From Leptolyngbya sp. NIES-2104 (GTDB taxonomy: Bacteria > Cyanobacteriota > Cyanobacteriia > Leptolyngbyales > Leptolyngbyaceae), in assembly GCF_001485215.1 (NCBI RefSeq), contig NZ_BBWW01000001.1, positions 930,001 to 994,000 of the forward strand: a DNA stretch of 64,000 nucleotides, read 5' to 3'. The stretch's first letter is position 1; every line of letters begins with the position of its first letter. The notes beneath the pieces were generated by a model. That model was not told the DNA's origin. It saw only the letters and a list, made by a program, of their open reading frames with translations, and did not search any database. Positions 13,885 to 61,905 of this stretch are shown here, piece after piece. The position numbers and the translations under genes were made by a program.

Positions 13885-15033
13885 TTAACAGATGGATTCG
13901 GTATCACTGAATCGAAATGCGAAGTCGTCGATCGCTTTTTCCTGAGTCTTTTTCGGCTTCGCTTTCAGAGACGGTTTCGGTGACGGAGATGGCTTCATCT
14001 GAACAGGTGTTTGAATTGCAGCGGGAGCCATCGCAGGCGGAACCGTTTTCGTCATCGATTGCTGTTGCAAAAAGACAAAGTAGCCCATTGCAGCAATTAG
14101 AACCGGGATGGGCGTAATCCAAATCCACGATCGCTTTTTCGGAGCACTTACGCTGATTGGTGACTTGATCGCAGTTGAACGGGGCGCGATCGCAGTTTCA
14201 GATAAAGCAGAATTTTCCAAATACATCACTCCGAGCGTGACATCATCCCCGCTACCTCGGCGTGATGTTTCTTGTAGAATTAGCGGCAAATTTGCAAGGA
14301 CGTGATCGAAGCCCTCTTTCCGAATCTTTCTAAGATAATCTGCACCGATTTGCTGAAAGTCCTCATCGGTTGCATAAGAATTCGCATAACCATCAGTAGA
14401 AGCAAGTATCATCGCTGGCAAAGCAGTTTCTATAAGCTTGAATCGTCCCTCTTTCCAGACTTGCGGCGTACAGAGGGAAATGGTTCGGTTTGCCATCAAT
14501 CGCGGATCAGGGGGTAGCGGATGCTGAATTGTTCCATCAGAGTGAACACAGAGAATATCACCATCGCCAATCTGCAAATAGAGAGCAAACTTCTTTGTAA
14601 TAACAACCATAAGCAAAGTTGCACCATAAGCGATCGTCGGATCTTGTTCGATTTGCGATCGCGATTCACCTTGCCAAAGTTCCTGCACCTCAAGCCGTTC
14701 CCACTCTGCCGCAGTAAAAGGATGTTGCGAAACATGATTCATCACACTTCTGCGCCACTGTTCTACAATCTGCTGCGGTAAAAGGTCGATCTGCTGCAAC
14801 AATCGAGACTGTTTTACTATCTTTGCAGCAATCTTAACCGCGATCGCTGAACCAATGTGACTACGAAAATAAGACTGTCCCCCGTGTCCATCCGAAACCA
14901 CCATCATCAAAGCTTGCTGCTGATCGATCGTCAGTGTTTCACAGCGGATTGCATCTTGATTGACCAATCCCGTTCTCTGATGCGATGCGCCTTGGATCGA
15001 TCGACCTTCGCAGCGCCAAGATAAATCATTCAT
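13885..15033 (-). CDS. PP2C-type protein phosphatase with C-terminal membrane anchor
   Basis: The catalytic part (about residues 1-270) shows the metal-binding PP2C motifs VSDGHGGQSYF, GDGDILCVHSDG, ASTDGYANSY and GSGDDVTLGVMYL. A single membrane helix (SWIWITPIPVLIAAMGYFVF) and a Pro/Lys-rich tail follow. It should remove phosphates from Ser/Thr, with the catalytic domain probably on the cytoplasmic side. I use the ATG at 15033, which lies just after the stop of the kinase-vWA gene, suggesting coupled translation; a TTG at 15048 is an alternative. As the last gene of the kinase/FHA cluster it is the obvious eraser for the two kinases upstream. Confidence 0.9.
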   Translation of the reverse strand: MNDLSWRCEGRSIQGASHQRTGLVNQDAIRCETLTIDQQQALMMVVSDGHGGQSYFRSHIGSAIAVKIAAKIVKQSRLLQQIDLLPQQIVEQWRRSVMNHVSQHPFTAAEWERLEVQELWQGESRSQIEQDPTIAYGATLLMVVITKKFALYLQIGDGDILCVHSDGTIQHPLPPDPRLMANRTISLCTPQVWKEGRFKLIETALPAMILASTDGYANSYATDEDFQQIGADYLRKIRKEGFDHVLANLPLILQETSRRGSGDDVTLGVMYLENSALSETAIAPRSTAIKSPISVSAPKKRSWIWITPIPVLIAAMGYFVFLQQQSMTKTVPPAMAPAAIQTPVQMKPSPSPKPSLKAKPKKTQEKAIDDFAFRFSDTESIC

Positions 15034-15041
15034 AACTGTAT

Positions 15042-16661
15042 TTACCAACGATCGTGATACATACCACTGAGAACCGGAGAAGGGTTAGATAACGGAATCG
15101 GAAGACTATTGAGCGATCCATCTTTTGCAAAGCTTGCAGGTGCAGAAGCGGCTTTGAGAACGGCGGTCGAAGCCCATTTAATCTGTCGCACTAACGCTTC
15201 GGGATTGTTTGCTCGCAGTGGTTTGAGATTGGAATGTCCAATAAACTGCTGTAGAACTTCGTAATCTGCATCGCGACCGATGGCGATCGCAACTCGAATC
15301 GCTTTACGTCCCCAAAACTGGTCGAACAACGCATTCAAGCCCGCGATATAGTCATCCGTCGGCTGTCCATCCGAAATCAGCACCAACACAGGCGGCAGTG
15401 CACGAGTATTCATCGGAGGCGCTTTTAACTGCTCTGCAACTTGATGAAGCGCGGCAGCTAAATCAGTATCGCCTTTTGCTGTAAGCGGATTCCAGCGAAA
15501 AGATTCGATCGGGGTGGGTTCTGGAATGATCCATTCTGCACCCGATGAAAACCGAATCGCCCGTAATAGGACTTGAGCATTAGGATTGTCATCGGCAGCG
15601 GCTTTCATGTGTGGAATCACTTCTTCGATCGCTGTATTCAAAGCCTGAATTTTGCCATCGATCGCCATTGATTCAGAACAATCACAAATCCAAATAAAGT
15701 GCAACGGTCGCGTCGCCATTGCGCCACCCGGAAGATCGGGCATCGATGTAAACACCTCAGCATTGATCGGAAATTCAGAATGCGTCGATAGATTCGTCGA
15801 AGGAACTTTGATCGATTGCAGCGCATCAAGGACAGCATCCGCAGATTGATAACGCTCTTCGGGCAAAAACGCCAACATTCGCGCAAGAATCTGAGCAAAA
15901 GTATCACTGACCGTAATGCTCGATCGCCAAGCGGCATGACCATTCATCGCTGCAAGTAAATGACTCGGTTGTCGTCCGCTCAGAAGTACGATCGCGCTGA
16001 CTGCCAACGCATAGAGATCACTACTCGGCGAACAACGTCCTTCACTCAATTGTTCAAACGGTGCGTAGCCATGTTTTCCTACAAACGAAGTAGGAACTTG
16101 ATTGAGTGCGGCTTGTGTACCGACTCCGAAATCAATCAATACAGGCATCCCGTGAGACAGCATCATATTATCGATCGACACATCCCGATGCAAAATTCCT
16201 TGAGCATGAACAGTGCCCAATACTGGAAGCAGAGCTTTGAGCAATTGAATTACTTCTGCTTCTGAAAACACTTGATTGTGAGCTAACCGCTGATAGAGCA
16301 TTTTTGCGTAAGTCTCACCCTCTATGAACTGCTGCACTAAAAACAATCGTTCCTGTTCTTCAAAAAAAGCAGAAAACTCAGGAATTTGAGGATGCTTGAT
16401 TTGATACAAGATTTTTGCTTCTCGATAAAACAGTTCTCGCGCCTTGGGTAAGCTTTGAAGACTGATACCGTTTGGAGCAAATTCCTTGAGCACCCAGCGT
16501 TCTTCAAAGCGTTCGATATCAAAGGCAAGATACGTGCGTCCGAGTCCACCTTGTCCAAGCACAGAGTGAATTCGATAGCGTTTGTGAATGATCGTTCCGG
16601 GGGCAATTTCTGGTTTCATAGGTGCTAGGTTTGATACCAATGAACAATTCGCTTTAATCAC
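15042..16661 (-). CDS. Ser/Thr protein kinase fused to a von Willebrand A domain
   Basis: The N-terminal kinase (about residues 28-285) keeps the key residues: glycine loop LGQGGLGRTYLA, Lys59, HRDVSIDN (Asp160, Asn165) and the DFG aspartate at 177. A linker leads to a vWA domain (about 318-520) with an intact metal site, DCSES at 327-331, plus GDTDLAAAL and LISDGQPTDD. The vWA domain probably binds a partner in a Mg-dependent way while the kinase phosphorylates it. The GTG at 16661 overlaps the previous stop (GTGA); an ATG at 16619 fits the usual kinase N-terminus and is a good alternative. TerY-P systems normally encode vWA and kinase separately, so the fusion is notable. Confidence 0.9.
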   Translation of the reverse strand: MIKANCSLVSNLAPMKPEIAPGTIIHKRYRIHSVLGQGGLGRTYLAFDIERFEERWVLKEFAPNGISLQSLPKARELFYREAKILYQIKHPQIPEFSAFFEEQERLFLVQQFIEGETYAKMLYQRLAHNQVFSEAEVIQLLKALLPVLGTVHAQGILHRDVSIDNMMLSHGMPVLIDFGVGTQAALNQVPTSFVGKHGYAPFEQLSEGRCSPSSDLYALAVSAIVLLSGRQPSHLLAAMNGHAAWRSSITVSDTFAQILARMLAFLPEERYQSADAVLDALQSIKVPSTNLSTHSEFPINAEVFTSMPDLPGGAMATRPLHFIWICDCSESMAIDGKIQALNTAIEEVIPHMKAAADDNPNAQVLLRAIRFSSGAEWIIPEPTPIESFRWNPLTAKGDTDLAAALHQVAEQLKAPPMNTRALPPVLVLISDGQPTDDYIAGLNALFDQFWGRKAIRVAIAIGRDADYEVLQQFIGHSNLKPLRANNPEALVRQIKWASTAVLKAASAPASFAKDGSLNSLPIPLSNPSPVLSGMYHDRW

Positions 16662-18319
16662 TGCACAGGCAAGGATTTAATCTGACTCGCTGCCGTGATG
16701 CGAATCTCTCCTTGATCATTTGGAGCCACTCCTGTCACTGCCAGTCGCTTAATTTTCGCAATGTCAGACAGTCCAGCATCTGACAGAATCTGCTTCGGAA
16801 CAATCACTTTGTGCATCTTGCCATTGTCTACCTGAAGCGTCAGATAGTCGGTGTTCTCATCTGAAAATCCGAACCCGTTGACTTTACCCGTGATTGCATT
16901 CGTGCAGCTAAACAGAATACGATCGCCTGATTTCCAGCGCGTCGGATCAGTACACGTCAAAAATTGATCGACCCGTTCTGCAATTCTCACTAGCTCACGA
17001 TAGTCTCCTGATGTTCCTTCACGATATCGAGCCGCTCTACGCATTTCTTCTGGCGCTTCTAGCAATGCTTTCTGTAGTGTTTCTCGATCGACTTCACTAA
17101 TTTTCGGTGAAACGTACACACCAGCGGTCGGAATCGCAAGACTTCCATTTAGCAAGCGCAATCCTCCCCGAAGCCGTTGGCGGACTGCTTTAAACCGCTC
17201 TGGAAGGTCTTTAGAAGGCTCCTCGGTAATCCACTGCACAGGTAGCACTCCTACATCCGCTCGACCTTCTAGCACATTGATTCCAGAAGCAACGGGAGTC
17301 GTATTGTTTGGTTCAACCCGCAAAGCACGACCATAAGACCCGTACACCGGAAGATAGAAGAAGGGACTATCTGGAGTGCCAAGCGCGATCGTATAGTCTG
17401 AGTTCCGATTCAAATCATCCAGTGTCTTGATCGGGCTATCATTGCGCGTCACGAGTCCGATTTGAAAACTTTCAGTATTCGAGGGTTGCATTCTGGCTGC
17501 AAATAGATAGTTATTCTGAATTGCTGCGGCGGAGAGTAGCGGATTTAATGTAAAAGCAATGTCCCATTCTTGATTTTTGAGCTTCGATCGAACTTGATCA
17601 AATGATTCGCGTCCGGTTGCTTCGATAAACTCCACTTTGACATCAATGTCCCGACCAAAGCGCTTTGCTAAGTCCCCTTTCAAATACTCCACAAATTTTT
17701 GATAGCCTTCTTTCGGATTAAATGTAGGCTGATTCGGTTGAGGATTTCCGGGCGCTTGAGACGAATTTGAAAGAACGGGAACATAAACGCCCACTGTGAC
17801 ACGAGAGAGTGAGGTTGAATTTTGTACAGTTGTTGTGTTACCACCGACCGCGATCGCGGATTTGGGTAGCAGTTTCGGAGCCAAGAAACCGATTCCAGCG
17901 ATCGTACTCACTGCAATGACTCCCATTGCGAGTCGTCGCTTGGTGATGTTCTTGCCGACGACTGTAACCGTGTTGATTTTTGTTTTTTGCGACATCGGCG
18001 ATCGCGCTTCTTTCAATACTCCTAATGCGAGTGCCCAAGATTCAACTGCCCAGCGTGCGATATCAGGCTGGAGTCCCAGTTGCTCGACTAATCGCGAGGT
18101 TAAGCGCTCGACTTGAACTTGAGGCGAAATCGATAGCTGCGTGGACATAAGTTCCTCTGGAACATGTTCATTTAATGCAGTGGTTAATGCTTTTCGCTCT
18201 AACTGATAGTGTGCTAGTCGATCGTTCAAATATCCTCGCCACTGTTGCGGGTTATCTGCAATATTGCTACCGAGTTCTTTTACCAAATCTCTTAGAATGT
18301 CTCTTGCTGTGCTGTTCAT
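16658..18319 (-). CDS. Membrane-anchored PhnD-like substrate-binding protein of the kinase cluster
   Basis: The 553-residue product has three parts. The first is a cytoplasmic helical domain (about 1-110). A single membrane helix follows (RLAMGVIAVSTIAGIGFLAP, about 129-148). The rest is an outside part that starts with a PhnD-type binding fold (about 174-445; GVYVPVLSNSS, YQKFVEYLKGDLAKRFGRDI, ALGTPDSPFFYLPVYGSYGRA) and ends in a C-terminal beta-rich tail (about 455-553). No transporter genes accompany it. The layout suggests a one-pass receptor: ligand sensing outside, signalling to the kinase-vWA protein inside. That role is inference. It overlaps the kinase-vWA gene by 4 bp. Confidence 0.82.
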   Translation of the reverse strand: MNSTARDILRDLVKELGSNIADNPQQWRGYLNDRLAHYQLERKALTTALNEHVPEELMSTQLSISPQVQVERLTSRLVEQLGLQPDIARWAVESWALALGVLKEARSPMSQKTKINTVTVVGKNITKRRLAMGVIAVSTIAGIGFLAPKLLPKSAIAVGGNTTTVQNSTSLSRVTVGVYVPVLSNSSQAPGNPQPNQPTFNPKEGYQKFVEYLKGDLAKRFGRDIDVKVEFIEATGRESFDQVRSKLKNQEWDIAFTLNPLLSAAAIQNNYLFAARMQPSNTESFQIGLVTRNDSPIKTLDDLNRNSDYTIALGTPDSPFFYLPVYGSYGRALRVEPNNTTPVASGINVLEGRADVGVLPVQWITEEPSKDLPERFKAVRQRLRGGLRLLNGSLAIPTAGVYVSPKISEVDRETLQKALLEAPEEMRRAARYREGTSGDYRELVRIAERVDQFLTCTDPTRWKSGDRILFSCTNAITGKVNGFGFSDENTDYLTLQVDNGKMHKVIVPKQILSDAGLSDIAKIKRLAVTGVAPNDQGEIRITAASQIKSLPVQ

Positions 18320-18339
18320 GGTTTAGTGCCTCATTGTTG

Positions 18340-19665
18340 TTACAGTCGAATTTCTGCGATCGTGTTACCGAAGTGAATCTTTAAGCCAGATTCGAGCGGC
18401 AACATTTGGAGCGGTTGGATGTCTTGTGATGTTCCGAATACTTTCCAGGAAACATCAGATAGATTTTGCAGAATCAGTTGATTTTGATCGAAGCGGGGGA
18501 TCACTCGCGCCGCAGGTTGAGAAAAATCGTAAGGACAATCGCGATCGAGATGATGCGGATACAGCAGCGTATCAAAGTTCAACATCACCATTGCTCCAGA
18601 ATCGAGTCGCATTCTGGCTGGAACTTCTAGCGGTTGCTCACATCGCCAGCAGTGTTTTGCTACCGCGCTTCTAAAGCTTTCAATGTCGTAAAAGTTCTCA
18701 GCTTCACAGTGCGGACAGTAAAAGATCGAATCCCGCAGTTTTACCATCGTCGATCGCCATAAACTTTCGCGCACTCTGCCCTCTCTTGGATCGCGAAGCC
18801 CGATCGTAAAAGACTGAACGAACAGCGCTTTCAAGAACTGCGGATAGATTGACCAAAACTCGATCGCGTTGGCTCCCGCTTCGATCAAATGAGCCTCTGG
18901 AAGTGCTGCATTCGATAAATTGTTCGGATCAAAGATGAATACTGGATCAGTTCCACAAATCCGCATCCGAGCGGGTAAATCCAAGCAAGAAATATCTAAT
19001 ACTTTTTTGCCGTAAAGCGGATGGTGATTGTGTAGTAAGCAGAACAATAACACTGCGAGTGAATAGCGATCGGTTTGCTGACTCGGTAATGCTTCTCGAC
19101 GAACGACCTCTGGAGCCATAAAGTCGGGTGTGCCGAGCACTCCACCGCTCGTAGAACCATCGATCGTCACATTATCGTTATCTCCGATCAAAACTTTTCC
19201 AGAGTGAGGATGAAAGTAAACATTGTTAAGTGAAATATCTCGGTAGCACAATCCTCGGCTGTGAAGCTGGAGAAAGCTATCTGCCAACTCTAGCCCGATC
19301 GTGGATAGCACTCGAAAGCTCAGCTTCACTCTACGTTTTACTAAGTCAACAGTGCTAAGATAGCCTCCCTCTCGAAGCTGCATCACATAGCCGAAACCGG
19401 AAGTCTCTGGAGAAGTGACGATCGCAAAGGGCCAAAGAAACTGATCATTCGGAGCTTCTAAATGAACAATCTCATTCAGACGCTCTAACAATCCGAAATC
19501 CTGATGAATGTAGTAGGAGTGAAACCATTTGAGTGCAACAGATCGATCGCTCAATCGTGCTCGATAGACTTCGCCCTGAGTCCCGCTGCCCAGCAATTCT
19601 TCAATCTGGCAGGATAGACCCATTGTGGTTTGAATGCACTGCTGCGGTGATAAAAGCTGGCTCAT
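18340..19665 (-). CDS. Protein kinase with C-terminal zinc ribbon (TerY-P-like)
   Basis: The kinase fold shows LGSGTQGEVYRA, VALKWF, YRDISLNN (catalytic Asp and Asn kept, His replaced by Tyr) and GDNDN in place of DFG, with the metal-binding Asp retained. After the kinase come CPHC and CWRC pairs spaced like a zinc ribbon, then a beta-rich tail (QLILQNLSDVSWKV) vaguely like a degenerate FHA fold. Kinases with a C-terminal zinc ribbon are typical of TerY-P triads. The ATG at 19665 has GAGGG seven bases upstream and is preferred over the GTG at 19686. Only 20 bp separate it from the PhnD-like gene downstream. Confidence 0.85.
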   Translation of the reverse strand: MSQLLSPQQCIQTTMGLSCQIEELLGSGTQGEVYRARLSDRSVALKWFHSYYIHQDFGLLERLNEIVHLEAPNDQFLWPFAIVTSPETSGFGYVMQLREGGYLSTVDLVKRRVKLSFRVLSTIGLELADSFLQLHSRGLCYRDISLNNVYFHPHSGKVLIGDNDNVTIDGSTSGGVLGTPDFMAPEVVRREALPSQQTDRYSLAVLLFCLLHNHHPLYGKKVLDISCLDLPARMRICGTDPVFIFDPNNLSNAALPEAHLIEAGANAIEFWSIYPQFLKALFVQSFTIGLRDPREGRVRESLWRSTMVKLRDSIFYCPHCEAENFYDIESFRSAVAKHCWRCEQPLEVPARMRLDSGAMVMLNFDTLLYPHHLDRDCPYDFSQPAARVIPRFDQNQLILQNLSDVSWKVFGTSQDIQPLQMLPLESGLKIHFGNTIAEIRL

Positions 19666-19781
19666 TGTTCCCTCGCCCAAGCTCACAGACTCATTCTGGA
19701 TCGAATTTCCTCTGTGGAGATTGCACTTTTATGTAGTTCTCAGTGCAGGAAACAGATGCAACAATGATTCGTGAACGGCAT

Positions 19782-19881
19782 GAAATCTGCCCTCACCCTA
19801 AATCCCTCTCCCCAGGGAGAGGGACTAAGATTCTTGCTCCCTTCTCCCTAGGGAGAAGGGTTGGGGATGAGGGCAGATTTC
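19782..19881. repeat. MITE-like palindromic repeat, 100 bp, inside the kinase cluster
   Basis: GAAATCTGCCCTCA at 19782-19795 is exactly complementary to 19868-19881. Inside lie two further hairpins, TCCCTCTCCC/GGGAGAGGGA and CCCTTCTCCC/GGGAGAAGGG. There is no ORF. This is a typical cyanobacterial palindromic repeat. It separates the zinc-ribbon kinase gene from the small membrane protein gene and may terminate or attenuate transcription within the cluster. Confidence 0.8.
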
Positions 19882-19896
19882 GCTATTATTATCAAA

Positions 19897-20340
19897 CTAA
19901 ACCGACCAGCGACCGATCCACTCGCCGCCTCGGAACCGCCAACGCGGAAAGAGTAATCGCATAATCACCCAAGAGCTTAGATAATCCGCAAGCCAAACTA
20001 AACTGTAATGCAGCGCAAACAAATCGAGATGTGCTGCCGCTTGTTGAGTTCCCGGTAGTCCTATCCAGCGAATTGCACCCGCGAGAAACAATCCTTCCAC
20101 GATCGCGGCTCCGAACTGAAACAATCCGGGCCAATCATGATCCCACATAAACTGCTGAAGCTGATGATAGAGAATGTCCCAGCACAACCCAAACCCCCAA
20201 ACATACAGCAAGACCCAGAAGTAAACGGTTCCCGGTGTATGACCAATCAATCCGGTTGAAAATAAAGAGCTTACAGCGACTCCGATCGTGGCAAGCAAAA
20301 ATGTTCGAGTTTGCCACCGTCCAATCAATGTAGGTGTCAT
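19897..20340 (-). CDS. Small integral membrane protein in the kinase/FHA cluster
   Basis: The 147-residue product has about four hydrophobic segments (around residues 12-33, 40-58, 75-95 and 105-128) with Trp-rich loops (HQLQQFMWDHDWPGLFQFG), and ends in an Arg/Trp-rich cytoplasmic tail. I do not recognise the family. Its position 22 bp downstream of the FHA-oxidoreductase gene suggests a role in the same system, perhaps a membrane platform. Confidence 0.75.
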   Translation of the reverse strand: MTPTLIGRWQTRTFLLATIGVAVSSLFSTGLIGHTPGTVYFWVLLYVWGFGLCWDILYHQLQQFMWDHDWPGLFQFGAAIVEGLFLAGAIRWIGLPGTQQAAAHLDLFALHYSLVWLADYLSSWVIMRLLFPRWRFRGGEWIGRWSV

Positions 20341-20362
20341 GTTAGTTTCCTGCTAAAAACAA

Positions 20363-22387
20363 CTAAGGTGCTTGATTTGCTGACCATTTGAGCCATTGAA
20401 ACACCGATCGCAATCCGACAATAAATCGCACATTCGGGGCGCGGAATCGTGCCAAACTTTCCACGGCTCGATGAGCGGCATACTGCAAACCCAGGAAGGT
20501 ATCGACAGGTGCATAAGGTCCACCGAGTGTGATGATCCCGGCGGCATACATGCGAGCGCGATCGTTCCGCATTTTCTTAATTTCAAAGCTATTCTCAACG
20601 TGCAATCGTCCTTGAGGATTAAGGTCGAGATTGTAATGCGTGATCATATCTCCTAGCAATGGATTGTCTTTCGGGTCTGAAATTAACCCCGTACAGTCAA
20701 TGACAAAATCTGCTTCAATCTTGTCAAAGCCAGGATAGTCACGATTTTTCACATAAGTAATCGGCTTGCCATCCGGACTCCGTTCGACCTTTTCCACTTG
20801 ACCGAATTTGAGAACATACCATCCTTCTTGAATGCCTTGTTTCACAATCTGTCGCCAGCGATGACGGCTTGCTGTCGTCGTCCCACCCCAAGCTTCTAAC
20901 AGTTCTCGCCGTTTGAGTGGATCAGACGATTCTAAGCGCGATCGCATATCTCCACCCCAAGTCGCTTTGGGCCAGTTAAACGGCTGAAACTCCCACTGGT
21001 TCTCAACATACCGTTTCGCGACTCCGAATCGATTGCCTTTTTTGTGCGTGCGGCTAAGATGCACGATCGTAATTTTCGGATTCTGCTTCCGAGCTTCGTA
21101 AACGCGATCGAGAATCTGCGATCCCACAATTCCAAAGCCACGAACTAACAATGTTCCACCATGCTTTTCTAAATGCTCAAAAATATGATCATGCGGTTCA
21201 TATCCTTGAACGACTGATTTCAAATCGCCTGTTGTTTCTCGATAGTGTTGTAAATCTGGCAATAGTTTCAATGCCGGATAGCCAGTTGCAAGATGAATAT
21301 ATCGAGCAATTAAAAATCGATAGTTTGGTGCACCTGGCGGACGAGTTGCAGAATATGCAATCACATAGCGTCCATCCTCGGTTTTCCGAATGCTCCGCAC
21401 ACTGCCATACCGCCACATCCGATCCCAGCTAATTCGTGCTGCTTCGCGATCCATTGAATCAAAAACGTCTCTGGCTCTCGGTGTGTAAGTATCAGCGATC
21501 GGTTCAGCGAAAACTTGCCATAAAAATCCGAATGCAGATCCGACTTGTCCCGTGCTAATCGATCGACAAGCATCCCTCAGTGCATATCCTGGAAAGCCCC
21601 AGATATTGTCAGGGCAAGAATCTGACCCCGATCGAATTCGCTTGTATCTGGGAATCTGACAATTTCGCAACAGTGTTTCATACCGCTTGTACGGCTTTTC
21701 CTGAATGCTCAATACTGCAATTTGCTCAGATTTCACACCAGAAATCCGCAGCATATCGGTAAACACGAAGCTGCCCATGCCGCCCCCGATCGAGGCGTAT
21801 TCAATTTCATCGATCGGAAATCCAGAAGCGTGAAGTGCAGAAACCGAGACCCGTTCAGCCGCAAACAATGACTCAGGCGGAAACGATGAACGTGCAGGAG
21901 TTGGAGGCTTAATCTGGGTTTGAATGGCATCCGTTTCAGGATTAAAAATAATCGTAGACGGTCGCGCTGCATCTTGAGGAACAGCCCCGACCTGAGAAAG
22001 CGGAGTGACGATCGTGGGTAATTTCGGTTCAGCGATCGTCGGCTGTGACATCGGTTGCAGAACCGTTAAAGTAATGTCATAACCACCAATTTGCAGAACA
22101 TCACCACTATTAATCAAGCGTTGCTGACCTTGAAATTTTTCGCCGTTCAACGAGCAACCATTCGCGCTTCGGTCTTCCACGATCAACTGGTTTTGCTCAA
22201 CGGTAATCCAAGCATGAAATCGAGAAATTTTGCGATTGGCATCGAGCAGCACGAGTTGAGAAACAGGTTGACCATTCTCTGTTTTAGGAAGCTGGTCTAT
22301 CTCTCGACCAATTGCGATCGGAGTCTCGAATTGGTATTGCTGCTGTTCTTCAGTGATGGGATCATCCCAAGTGAATTGAATTTGCAT
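20363..22387 (-). CDS. FHA domain fused to an FAD/NAD(P)-dependent oxidoreductase
   Basis: Residues 23-110 form an FHA domain with the phosphothreonine-binding residues in place (Gly27-Arg28, SRFH at 55-58, Asn76-Gly77). After a Pro-rich linker comes a flavoprotein resembling FAD-dependent pyridine-nucleotide oxidoreductases or N-hydroxylating monooxygenases: first dinucleotide site SIGGGMGSF (199-207), second Rossmann site VRGFGIVGSQILDRV (near 400) and a late FVIDCTGLISDP segment. The fusion suggests that a redox reaction is directed to, or controlled by, a phosphorylated partner, most simply one of the cluster kinases. The substrate is unknown. The gene lies 4 bp after the smaller FHA gene. 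Confidence 0.85.
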   Translation of the reverse strand: MQIQFTWDDPITEEQQQYQFETPIAIGREIDQLPKTENGQPVSQLVLLDANRKISRFHAWITVEQNQLIVEDRSANGCSLNGEKFQGQQRLINSGDVLQIGGYDITLTVLQPMSQPTIAEPKLPTIVTPLSQVGAVPQDAARPSTIIFNPETDAIQTQIKPPTPARSSFPPESLFAAERVSVSALHASGFPIDEIEYASIGGGMGSFVFTDMLRISGVKSEQIAVLSIQEKPYKRYETLLRNCQIPRYKRIRSGSDSCPDNIWGFPGYALRDACRSISTGQVGSAFGFLWQVFAEPIADTYTPRARDVFDSMDREAARISWDRMWRYGSVRSIRKTEDGRYVIAYSATRPPGAPNYRFLIARYIHLATGYPALKLLPDLQHYRETTGDLKSVVQGYEPHDHIFEHLEKHGGTLLVRGFGIVGSQILDRVYEARKQNPKITIVHLSRTHKKGNRFGVAKRYVENQWEFQPFNWPKATWGGDMRSRLESSDPLKRRELLEAWGGTTTASRHRWRQIVKQGIQEGWYVLKFGQVEKVERSPDGKPITYVKNRDYPGFDKIEADFVIDCTGLISDPKDNPLLGDMITHYNLDLNPQGRLHVENSFEIKKMRNDRARMYAAGIITLGGPYAPVDTFLGLQYAAHRAVESLARFRAPNVRFIVGLRSVFQWLKWSANQAP

Positions 22388-22391
22388 ACAC

Positions 22392-22925
22392 TTAAGCCTG
22401 AGGAATGACGTAATCGATCATCGTGGCACCGAGCACTTGATAGCCGCAGTGACAGGTAAGTAACGAATAATCAGCCGGAAGAATATGTGCGCCTTTAGGA
22501 TTTGTACATTTGCAAACAAATCGAGGGGCTTGAACCGCTTCCTTCTGTGGAGTTTGCTGTGAGTCTATTTGAAGAAGCTTCACTCGAAGTGTCATTTTTC
22601 CGAGTTTAATTTTGCTGTTTTCTGCAATCGGAAGCTCCTGATCAATTACAGTTTGTCCATCAACAACTACGGGATTCGGTGGAATGCGATCGCGAGTCAT
22701 ATTCCGAAGATAAATCTGCTGGGCTGCCTCATTCCAGAACAGTTCAATGTGCAGACCGGAAACCGTTCTTTCGATGCTGCGATCGGGATGGTGTAACACG
22801 AGATCACAACGTTCTCGATCGCGTCCGATCCGAATCGTTCCACCCTGTTTTGTTTGATCTTGGGATGATACGGTTTGTGAACAGTTGCGATTGTCTTCCT
22901 GCCATTCCAAAGTAAGGCGGTACAT
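22392..22925 (-). CDS. FHA-domain protein with C-terminal Cys cluster
   Basis: The 177-residue product is mostly one FHA domain (about residues 20-115; IGRDRERCDLVL, SGLHIEL and a following Asn region), preceded by a short strand. The C-terminal tail has CKC and CHC pairs about 20 residues apart, which could bind one zinc. FHA domains bind phosphothreonine peptides; this one is probably a phospho-dependent adaptor for the cluster kinases. It is the first gene of the minus-strand cluster and lies 4 bp from the FHA-oxidoreductase gene, so the promoter should lie in 22926-23153. Confidence 0.85.
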   Translation of the reverse strand: MYRLTLEWQEDNRNCSQTVSSQDQTKQGGTIRIGRDRERCDLVLHHPDRSIERTVSGLHIELFWNEAAQQIYLRNMTRDRIPPNPVVVDGQTVIDQELPIAENSKIKLGKMTLRVKLLQIDSQQTPQKEAVQAPRFVCKCTNPKGAHILPADYSLLTCHCGYQVLGATMIDYVIPQA

Positions 22926-60161: not shown

Positions 60162-61829
60162 ATGGAATTACCAGAGCCACAAACTAGAACCTTCTCCAGT
60201 CTCGTCAGTGAGATTGAGAAAGGACAAATCAAAATTCCACAATTTCAAAGAGACTTTGTTTGGACAATTCAGAAATCTGCGGGATTGATCGACAGTATTA
60301 TTAAAGGCTATCCGATTGGCACATTTATTTTTTGGCGTACTAAAGAAAGACTACGATCGGTCAAAGAAATTGGTAGACAGATCCTTCCAGAATCGCCGCA
60401 AGGTGAAGTCGTTGATTATGTTCTCGATGGACAGCAACGGCTCACCAGTTTATTTGCGAGTTTGCAAGGAATTCTCCTAGAGAGAGAGGGGAATCGAAAG
60501 GATGATTTTTCTAAGATATTTATTGATTTAAGCGCGGAAGAATCTGAACAAATTGTAATTACGGATGTTGAGAACAGAGACGAAAAGAGCTTTATCAGCA
60601 TTGTTTCGCTCTTGACCGGAGATTTCATAGTTTTAGCTTCGTATCCACCTGCACATCATGAAAAGCTGAGAACTTATAAAAATAGAATTGAAAGCTATCA
60701 GTACTCGGTCATTTTGGTGAAAAATGCACCGATCGATATTGCAACAGAGATTTTCACCAGAATTAATGTCGGAGGAAAGGCTCTTTCTCTGTTCGAGATT
60801 ATGGCAGCGAAAACTTTTGACTATGAGAAGAAGTTTGATCTGGCTGAAAAATTCCAAGAGCTAGTTGAGAGTTTGAAGCCTTTCGATTACGAGACTATTT
60901 CGGATGCAACTGTGCTTCAAATCATCTCGCTCATCATCAAAAAAGAATGTAAAAGACAAATCATTCTTCAACTGAACAAAGAAGAATTTATCGCGCATTG
61001 GGAACCCGTTGTAGATGCGATCGAACGAACAGTAGAGTATTTCAGAAATTTCTACCGCATTCCAGTTTCACAGCTACTTCCATACAATGCTTTGATTGTT
61101 CCTTTTTCATACTTCTTCTTTCATCACCCAAATAAGCCTGTGGGAGAAATGCAGAAGTATCTAGAAGATTTTTTCTGGAGATGTTCTCTGTCTGGGCGAT
61201 ATTCGTCCTCGGTTGAAAGTAAGTTAGCACAAGATATCAAGCGAATTGATCAAATTCTCGACGGTCAATTGCCAAGCTATGAATGGTCGATCGATACTTC
61301 AGCCGATTTTATCAAGAGCAATGGTTGGTTTAGTGCTGCTCGCAGTTATGTCAAAGCAATTCTTTGTGTTTATGCGTATCAGCAACCTAAATCTTTTAGT
61401 GATAATTCAATCGTAAACATTAGCAACTATTGGCTAAAACAAGCAAATAGCAAGAATTATCATCATTTCTTTCCAAAAGCGCATCTCAAAAAACGGAACT
61501 ATCCGGATTTCTATATCAATCACATTCTAAACATCACGATTGTGGATGACTTCCTCAACAAACGCGAGATCAAGGCGAATGCTCCCTCAAAATACATGGG
61601 TAAATTCAAGTCAATTAATTCAGACTTAGCCAGTACGATGATGACTCATCTAATTGGGGATCTAGAGCGTTTTGGCATCTGGGACGATGATTATGATCGA
61701 TTTATCGATGAACGAGCCAAGATCGTGAGCGCTGAATTGGCAAAACGAATCATCCGGCAGGAAATCGATAACAAGGGACAAGCAAATCTCGTGGATGATT
61801 TTGATGAAGACGCAACGGTCAGCGAATAA
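60162..61829 (+). CDS. DUF262/GmrSD-like protein with C-terminal HNH-type motif
   Basis: The 555-residue product has the DUF262 N-terminus: IPQFQRDFVWT (about 25-35) and VLDGQQRLTSL (87-97), where DGQQR is the ParB-like nucleotidase signature. The C-terminal third has YHHFFPKAHLKKRNYP (His434-His435) and downstream Asn residues (NHILNITIVDDFLN), an HNH/DUF1524-like site. The combination matches GmrSD-type modification-dependent restriction enzymes and related anti-phage proteins. It stands alone, which is normal for GmrSD fusions. AGGAG lies before the ATG. Confidence 0.85.
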   Translation: MELPEPQTRTFSSLVSEIEKGQIKIPQFQRDFVWTIQKSAGLIDSIIKGYPIGTFIFWRTKERLRSVKEIGRQILPESPQGEVVDYVLDGQQRLTSLFASLQGILLEREGNRKDDFSKIFIDLSAEESEQIVITDVENRDEKSFISIVSLLTGDFIVLASYPPAHHEKLRTYKNRIESYQYSVILVKNAPIDIATEIFTRINVGGKALSLFEIMAAKTFDYEKKFDLAEKFQELVESLKPFDYETISDATVLQIISLIIKKECKRQIILQLNKEEFIAHWEPVVDAIERTVEYFRNFYRIPVSQLLPYNALIVPFSYFFFHHPNKPVGEMQKYLEDFFWRCSLSGRYSSSVESKLAQDIKRIDQILDGQLPSYEWSIDTSADFIKSNGWFSAARSYVKAILCVYAYQQPKSFSDNSIVNISNYWLKQANSKNYHHFFPKAHLKKRNYPDFYINHILNITIVDDFLNKREIKANAPSKYMGKFKSINSDLASTMMTHLIGDLERFGIWDDDYDRFIDERAKIVSAELAKRIIRQEIDNKGQANLVDDFDEDATVSE

Positions 61830-61854
61830 AAAACCCCCAACCGAAGTCAGGGGT
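61828..61854 (-). terminator. Rho-independent terminator of the EamA transporter gene
   Basis: On the minus strand ACCCCTGAC and GTTGGGGGT pair (nine pairs, two of them G-U) around a TTCG tetraloop, followed by six T. It lies about 50 bp after the EamA stop. On the plus strand the stem has two mismatches, so it serves the DUF262 gene less well. Confidence 0.78.
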
Positions 61855-61905
61855 AATTAATCAGGGTGCATCTACCAATACCTACTACTTCAAAATTCCC
61901 GTAGA

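Follow-up and report, generated by a model that had tools for sequence, protein, structure and literature searches.

Do seven adjacent genes that resemble the parts of a phosphorylation circuit belong to one system? This question is raised by an island of minus-strand genes in Leptolyngbya sp. NIES-2104 (genome, 6.39 Mb), located at 13885-22925 of the 64,000-nucleotide stretch of contig NZ_BBWW01000001.1 (positions 930,001 to 994,000) that we analyzed and call the window. A first-pass annotation, made from the letters alone, had described the island as one complete write/read/erase circuit around a TerY-P-like triad. Our best reading of the gene distribution is that the island probably consists of two separately inherited modules. 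Module A encodes a small FHA protein (FHAs), an FHA-flavoprotein fusion (FHA-OX, the enzyme) and a small membrane protein (TM147). Module B encodes a zinc-ribbon kinase (ZnK), a PhnD-like membrane protein, a kinase-vWA fusion and a PP2C phosphatase.

Distribution and layout of the two modules

The modules were searched for in 386 cyanobacterial genomes, using the C-terminal part of FHA-OX as the query for the enzyme and thresholds of E<=1e-15 for the vWA domain, E<=1e-40 for ZnK and E<=1e-20 for the PhnD-like protein. At these thresholds, the enzyme accompanied vWA or ZnK in one genome of the 386, that of the window. It was absent from the other 11 genomes with vWA, and neither vWA nor ZnK was found in the other 60 genomes with the enzyme. 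Within nine genes of the 63 enzyme loci outside the window genome, vWA was found at none and PP2C at two, each time as the ninth gene. The modules were also observed apart in the genus (eight genomes compared): G391 possesses a kinase/PhnD/kinase-vWA/PP2C cassette without the enzyme, and G386 has FHAs, enzyme and TM147 as a set of a second type, with no vWA in the genome. In G390 (L138/L232), the order FHAs-OX-TM147-ZnK-PhnD runs up to the contig end, and no vWA was found in this fragmented assembly; neither probe matched in G388, G389 and G392. The single seven-gene circuit does not agree with this dissociation. The annotation had named homologues lying mostly apart as the pattern that would speak against it; we observed this pattern at the phylum level and outside the genus, but the full set is conserved in the congener G387 (L222). 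Because the seven-gene order is identical there, and because all seven genes are under purifying selection (ratio of nonsynonymous to synonymous substitution rates of 0.054-0.212, window genome versus G387), the island is more than a chance arrangement.

The annotated gene content itself was confirmed, as open reading frames (ORFs) are present at the positions in Table 1 and both Pfam and hydropathy agree with the domains. The Pfam E-values were 8e-41 for PP2C_2, 3.2e-32 and 4.4e-6 for Pkinase and VWA in the kinase-vWA protein, 1.9e-16 for Phosphonate-bd in the PhnD-like protein, 3.9e-19 for Pkinase in ZnK, and 5.3e-10 and 1.9e-6 for FHA in FHA-OX and FHAs, while TM147 was without any match in Pfam, NCBIfam and PADLOC. 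By hydropathy, PP2C and the PhnD-like protein each have a single strong transmembrane segment, beginning at residues 309 and 130, respectively, and TM147 has three such segments. For ZnK, the ATG at residue 8 of the ORF, preceded by GAGGGAAC, is the more likely start. As annotated, most genes overlap (PhnD/kinase-vWA and kinase-vWA/PP2C) or lie less than 25 bp apart (FHAs/FHA-OX, 4 bp; FHA-OX/TM147, 22 bp; ZnK/PhnD, 20 bp). The exception is the TM147/ZnK gap of 210 bp, the widest in the island, which coincides with the module boundary and contains a palindromic repeat of approximately 100 bp.

This repeat resembles a miniature inverted-repeat transposable element (MITE) and occurs at approximately seven sites of the genome, four near full length and three partial; it is absent at the junction in G387 and G390. 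The inverted repeat GCACT-N14-AGTGC is identical upstream of ZnK in three species; in G391, the region before the kinase showed no such repeat. Promoter-like sites (9 versus 11.1 by chance) and terminator-like sites (6 versus 9.0) did not exceed chance expectation. A mobile island was considered and rejected: the G+C content is flat across the island (0.45-0.49), and on either side of the island the G387 genes closely match those of the window in size, except for one additional small ORF.

Table 1. Features of the island in window coordinates (aa, amino acids; TM, transmembrane segment; MIDAS, metal ion-dependent adhesion site).
Feature	Position	Strand	Module	Description	Basis
PP2C	13885..15048	-	B	PP2C phosphatase, one C-terminal TM	Pfam, hydropathy
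Kinase-vWA	15042..16661	-	B	fusion, extra Hanks kinase before TerY-type vWA (MIDAS DxSxS kept)	
PhnD-like protein	16658..18319	-	B (triad insertion)	membrane protein: N-terminal part of ~130 aa, one TM, PhnD-type solute-binding domain (203-424), C-terminal extension	
ZnK	18340..19686	-	B	Ser/Thr kinase with C-terminal zinc ribbon (TerY-P kinase)	
Inverted repeat	19723..19746	-	B	GCACT-N14-AGTGC upstream of ZnK, candidate regulatory element	
Dispersed repeat	19782..19881	no strand		palindromic, ~100 bp, MITE-like, at module junction	
TM147	19897..20340	-	A	147 aa membrane protein, no known family, four long helices	
FHA-OX	20363..22387	-	A	674 aa, N-terminal FHA and flavoprotein of SidA/PvdA fold with two dinucleotide-binding domains	
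FHAs	22392..22925	-	A	177 aa FHA protein, C-terminal cysteine pairs	

The trio of module A

FHA-OX was present in 61 of the 386 genomes (37 of 143 genera), and TM147 likewise in 61. Sixty genomes hold both, out of 62 holding either; the remaining two are G278, with the enzyme alone, and G385, with a broken TM147 alone. Fisher's test of this co-occurrence gave p=2.5e-68, a value that is overstated since it treats related genomes as independent. Four genomes (G000, G174, G255 and G284) carry two enzyme genes at separate places and two TM147 genes each. Within eight genes of the enzyme in 65 neighbourhoods (63 fetched and two of the window genome), a relative of FHAs was found at 56 and one of TM147 at 52. 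In terms of gene distribution, these results show the trio to be a conserved cyanobacterial module with co-inheritance of the enzyme and TM147. Two further families recur nearby, one of 221 aa at 34 of the 65 loci and one of 241 aa at 22, which by eye appear to be endonuclease V and a hydrolase of the GDSL type, respectively. When one genome per species was scanned with a pattern-based search, 305 stretches encoding enzyme relatives were obtained. Among the best 80 of these, 79 have cyanobacterial titles, including Nostoc, Calothrix, Anabaena/Dolichospermum, Microcoleus, Oscillatoria and others; the remaining stretch comes from a marine Crocinitomicaceae metagenome-assembled genome and is taken for a binning error. 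The scanned loci share genomes with the fetched neighbourhoods and are not independent of them. In the second enzyme copy of G255 (L103:8779-10986), the C-terminal part is missing and the chain continues in frame into TM147. This fusion was considered as proof of contact and was not used, as the missing part makes it look like a deletion product.

Next, the fold of FHA-OX was analyzed with an AlphaFold2 model built on 39 sequences (mean predicted local distance difference test score, pLDDT, 77.9). Among the best 50 Foldseek matches, the SidA and PvdA ornithine N-hydroxylases ranked first, with E-values down to 1.8e-15, target TM-scores of 0.61-0.69 (SidA) and 0.69-0.73 (PvdA), and 12-14% identity over 482-519 alignment columns, gaps included. 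Dihydrolipoamide dehydrogenases followed with target TM-scores of 0.43-0.47. The motifs GxGxG(S/T), GxGIV(A/G/S)S and D-x-T-G-L are conserved in all 39 sequences, and the first two are read, from their sequence, as putative binding sites for flavin adenine dinucleotide (FAD) and nicotinamide adenine dinucleotide phosphate (NADPH). Outside the FHA part, FHA-OX has no match in Pfam, NCBIfam and PADLOC apart from sub-threshold Pfam ones; no lysine/ornithine oxygenase Pfam family appeared among the matches of 20 members at E<=1, and all 40 PDB sequence matches are confined to the FHA part.

The FHA domain is present on the enzyme in 63 of the 63 loci outside the window genome. Among its signature residues (GR, SxxH and NG), G, R, S, H and G are conserved in 39 of 39 sequences and N in 38, and these positions bind phosphothreonine according to an excerpt of PMC1262709. 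Their retention agrees with the annotation of the FHA proteins as phospho-readers. FHAs has the cysteine pairs CxC/CxC in the window, and CxxC...CxxC by a strict pattern in 43 of its 56 family members; GR[DES] and S[GKR][LFY]H occur in 49 of the 56, the remaining seven showing looser GR and SxxH by eye. TM147 was modelled by AlphaFold as four long helices (pLDDT 85.2), and it includes charged and aromatic residues that are invariant across its family. The linker motif S-T-I-x-F-N-P-x-T-D of FHA-OX was considered as a phosphosite, with T152 being T or S in 36 of 39 sequences, but the model has short strands there and the site is kept as an idea only.

The TerY-P triad and its precedents

TerY-P systems combine a TerY-like vWA protein, a PP2C and a Ser/Thr kinase with a C-terminal zinc ribbon, as given in an excerpt of PMC11090510. 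The three parts were recognized in the island. The vWA domain shows D-C-S-E-S in sequence, and inspection by eye adds the T and D that come later in the MIDAS motif described in the same excerpt; PP2C is adjacent; and the C-terminal part of ZnK contains CPHC...CWRC, with a zinc-ribbon Pfam model at 0.013, below the cut-off. The vWA domain was found in 12 of the 386 genomes and ZnK in nine. Eight genomes of another family, f19, hold both, and the order was ZnK, vWA, PP2C in all eight (L118-L125). Compared with the window, the f19 kinases are 39-44% and the standalone vWA proteins 54-55% identical, and PP2C matches more weakly (58-84 bits). Other orders were seen at L126 and L127 (vWA, PP2C, kinase), and vWA alone at L128, on a short contig of G038. 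The annotated TerY-P triad therefore holds, in its definition and in the f19 gene order, to which the window adds a PhnD-like membrane protein after ZnK and a kinase fused before vWA, both of them, in our reading, acquired in this genus.

Close relatives of the PhnD-like protein are lacking in the sample: matches were found in 15 genomes including its own, the others being at most 38% identical. Its N-terminal part (window 17900-18319) has no Pfam match and, with RWAVESWALALG, resembles a module in other bacterial multi-domain signalling proteins. In several cyanobacterial families, PhnD-like domains occur with Ser/Thr kinases, either fused (L129, L135, L136), adjacent (L130) or one gene apart (L132), possibly forming a wider class of receptor kinases. 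We considered that the PhnD-like protein and the extra kinase were already paired when they came into the triad. However, among the matches listed for the extra kinase domain in 15 genomes, the closest relatives were other kinases (up to 55% identity), whereas those at PhnD loci were 34-40% identical (e.g. G262 C34, G157 C51 and G296 C131), and a common origin was rejected. TerY-P triads are associated with Ter proteins, metal sensing or restriction systems; no Ter protein was present among ten annotated flanking proteins, to which this comparison was confined.

Compared with the plain TerY-P triad, the island thus shares all three parts and their order and differs in the PhnD-like insertion, the second kinase and the FHA/flavoenzyme/membrane protein trio upstream. 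PpkA also carries a C-terminal vWA domain (PMC1262709, in excerpt), and the PpkA/PppA/Fha threonine phosphorylation pathway of type VI secretion brings together a PP2C and an FHA reader (PMC3953482, in excerpt). The island likewise combines a kinase-vWA protein, a PP2C and FHA readers, but its FHA reader is fused to a flavoenzyme. No type VI gene was found among the ten flanking proteins, to which this search was confined, and the TagH/Fha family (TIGR03354) gave 34.6 and 17.3 bits against a cut-off of 120.25, the 34.6-bit match covering the FHA part only. Zeaxanthin epoxidase is an NADPH/FAD monooxygenase with an FHA domain (PMC11429058, in excerpt). FHA is similarly joined to a flavin enzyme in FHA-OX, which differs in its N-terminal FHA and its SidA/PvdA-like fold. 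Zeaxanthin epoxidase belongs to another class of flavin monooxygenases, and its FHA domain is C-terminal. SidA and PvdA, which are class B flavin monooxygenases, resemble FHA-OX in predicted fold and in the two dinucleotide-binding domains, whereas by Pfam FHA-OX lies outside their sequence family and is distinguished by the low identity, the FHA fusion and the membrane partner. The nearest solved FHA domains include those of the GarA/OdhI type (2kfu, 6i2p and 2kb3; E 3e-9 to 5e-9). In mycobacteria and corynebacteria, GarA/OdhI switch metabolic enzymes through FHA in trans; in contrast, the FHA of FHA-OX lies in the enzyme chain. By analogy, the type VI pathway and zeaxanthin epoxidase are precedents for parts of the island and would not account for the whole.

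The annotation had further not recognized the whole as a described system. The TerY-P part is known; for the trio and the island, no description was found in the open literature on TerY/TerY-P and on FHA-flavin enzymes in cyanobacteria, a search that left subscription papers, including the original TerY-P analysis, outside its scope. The island thus appears to combine a known TerY-P switch, which has unusual insertions, with a trio for which no earlier description was found.

Proposed mechanism and competing readings

A second FHAs/FHA-enzyme pair lies elsewhere in the same genome (L009:8417-17028; C1:502417-511028), and its enzyme is 42% identical to FHA-OX over the full length. The pair is divergent from an operon encoding PP2C, kinase-RDD, RDD, kinase-FHA, zinc ribbon-vWA and FHA-PrsW protease, the last of which seems an unusual fusion. 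The same arrangement was observed in G387 and G390 (L230, L231) and not beside the enzyme in G386. Because its PP2C and vWA gave no BLAST match to those of the island at E<=0.01, two unrelated phosphorylation cassettes adjoin the two enzyme copies. Phosphorylation control of the enzyme is plausible, and this second pairing, seen in one genus, is its best support from gene context.

We propose, with confidence evenly divided for and against, that the island may encode a phosphothreonine-gated, membrane-associated flavin monooxygenase-like system wired locally to a TerY-P switch. The PhnD-like domain would lie outside the membrane and report a solute or an anion. Threonine phosphorylation would then be set by the two kinases, with the metal-binding vWA domain as their scaffold and the membrane-anchored PP2C acting against them. 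By binding phosphothreonine, the FHA domains of module A would bring the NADPH/FAD enzyme to the membrane beside TM147 or gate it there, and FHA-OX would finally oxidize a substrate that is small or membrane-soluble. Beyond what the sequence shows, we infer that phosphotransfer links the modules, in which direction the gating acts, that the PhnD-like domain is a sensor and that the chemistry is that of a monooxygenase rather than an oxidase or a reductase. Somewhat more tentative, at a little below an even chance, is the wider proposal that FHAs-FHA-OX-TM147 may be an undescribed phosphothreonine-gated membrane flavin monooxygenase system of about one-sixth of cyanobacteria, which this genus has plugged twice, independently, into a local kinase/PP2C/vWA switch.

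Several observations weigh against these proposals and the division into two modules. A kinase was located within nine genes of the enzyme at 13 of the 63 loci, at scattered positions, and cruder single-linkage clustering placed a kinase-containing cluster at 19 of the 65, the genome's own two included. Both L140 and L142 show, no more than seven genes away from the enzyme, a kinase and a weakly matching PhnD-like gene (43 and 46 bits), and more divergent TerY-P triads may fall below the thresholds. As module A is seldom near kinases outside the genus, its control there would come from unlinked kinases, or there would be none. On the protein side, FAD_oxidored matched three of 20 FHA-OX members at E<=1 (best 0.044), and no Pfam oxidoreductase reached its cut-off. 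The TM147 fold search returned four matches with a best E of 4.9 and no fold relative. Moreover, the invariant FHA-OX segments 251-265, 467-478 and 501-506 have pLDDT <50, and the active site is therefore not resolved by the model.

This last point bears on a rather doubtful alternative, in which the flavoprotein would be a reductase or would sense redox state or NAD(P)H, docking through FHA to phosphoproteins and, with TM147, exchanging electrons with a membrane carrier. The dihydrolipoamide dehydrogenases in the fold list, the lack of a resolved substrate pocket in the model and a membrane partner in nearly all enzyme genomes are consistent with it, whereas the top E-values and TM-scores among the best 50 matches belong to N-hydroxylating monooxygenases. 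It is also unlikely that the products of all seven genes evolved to act jointly as one integrated write/read/erase circuit. The complete order in G387, the five genes preserved in G390 before the contig end, the purifying selection on every gene and the short intergenic distances all argue for such a circuit. However, no sampled genome outside the genus holds both modules at the thresholds used, they are split in G391 and G386, and the widest gap and the conserved inverted repeat precede ZnK, as would fit a separate promoter for module B, although the promoter scan showed nothing above chance.

An anti-phage defence island, with a TerY-P-like kinase module and module A as its effector, is very improbable. 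Both kinases match PADLOC kinase models (kinase-vWA to PD-T4-6, 7e-71), TerY-P-like modules are reported as defence systems (PMC11090510, in excerpt), and one Uma2-family putative nuclease lies nearby. However, the PADLOC matches cover the kinase domains, and that of PP2C is marginal (PD-T4-6, 0.0093, 13.5 bits); the PhnD-like protein, TM147, FHA-OX and FHAs have no PADLOC match. No mobile-element gene was found among the ten flanking proteins, and the 221 and 241 aa neighbours of module A recur across many genomes.

FHA-OX has its phosphothreonine-reading domain on the same chain as a redox enzyme, and its membrane partner is near-obligate; if the proposed phosphothreonine-gated system is correct, it would thus offer a directly testable signalling output. 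The island also presents a TerY-P switch that was rewired when a solute-binding protein of the membrane and another kinase were inserted. The window genome alone contains 17 FHA matches and at least 28 matches to one kinase domain, and the outputs of cyanobacterial Ser/Thr kinases and FHA proteins are, to our knowledge, mostly unknown. Some of the enzyme-bearing cyanobacterial genera are genetically workable. Elsewhere in the window, the nitrogen stress-induced RNA 1 (NsiR1) family of Rfam matched at 61826-61877 with 57.8 bits against a gathering threshold of 39, and no other Rfam family passed its threshold anywhere in the window.

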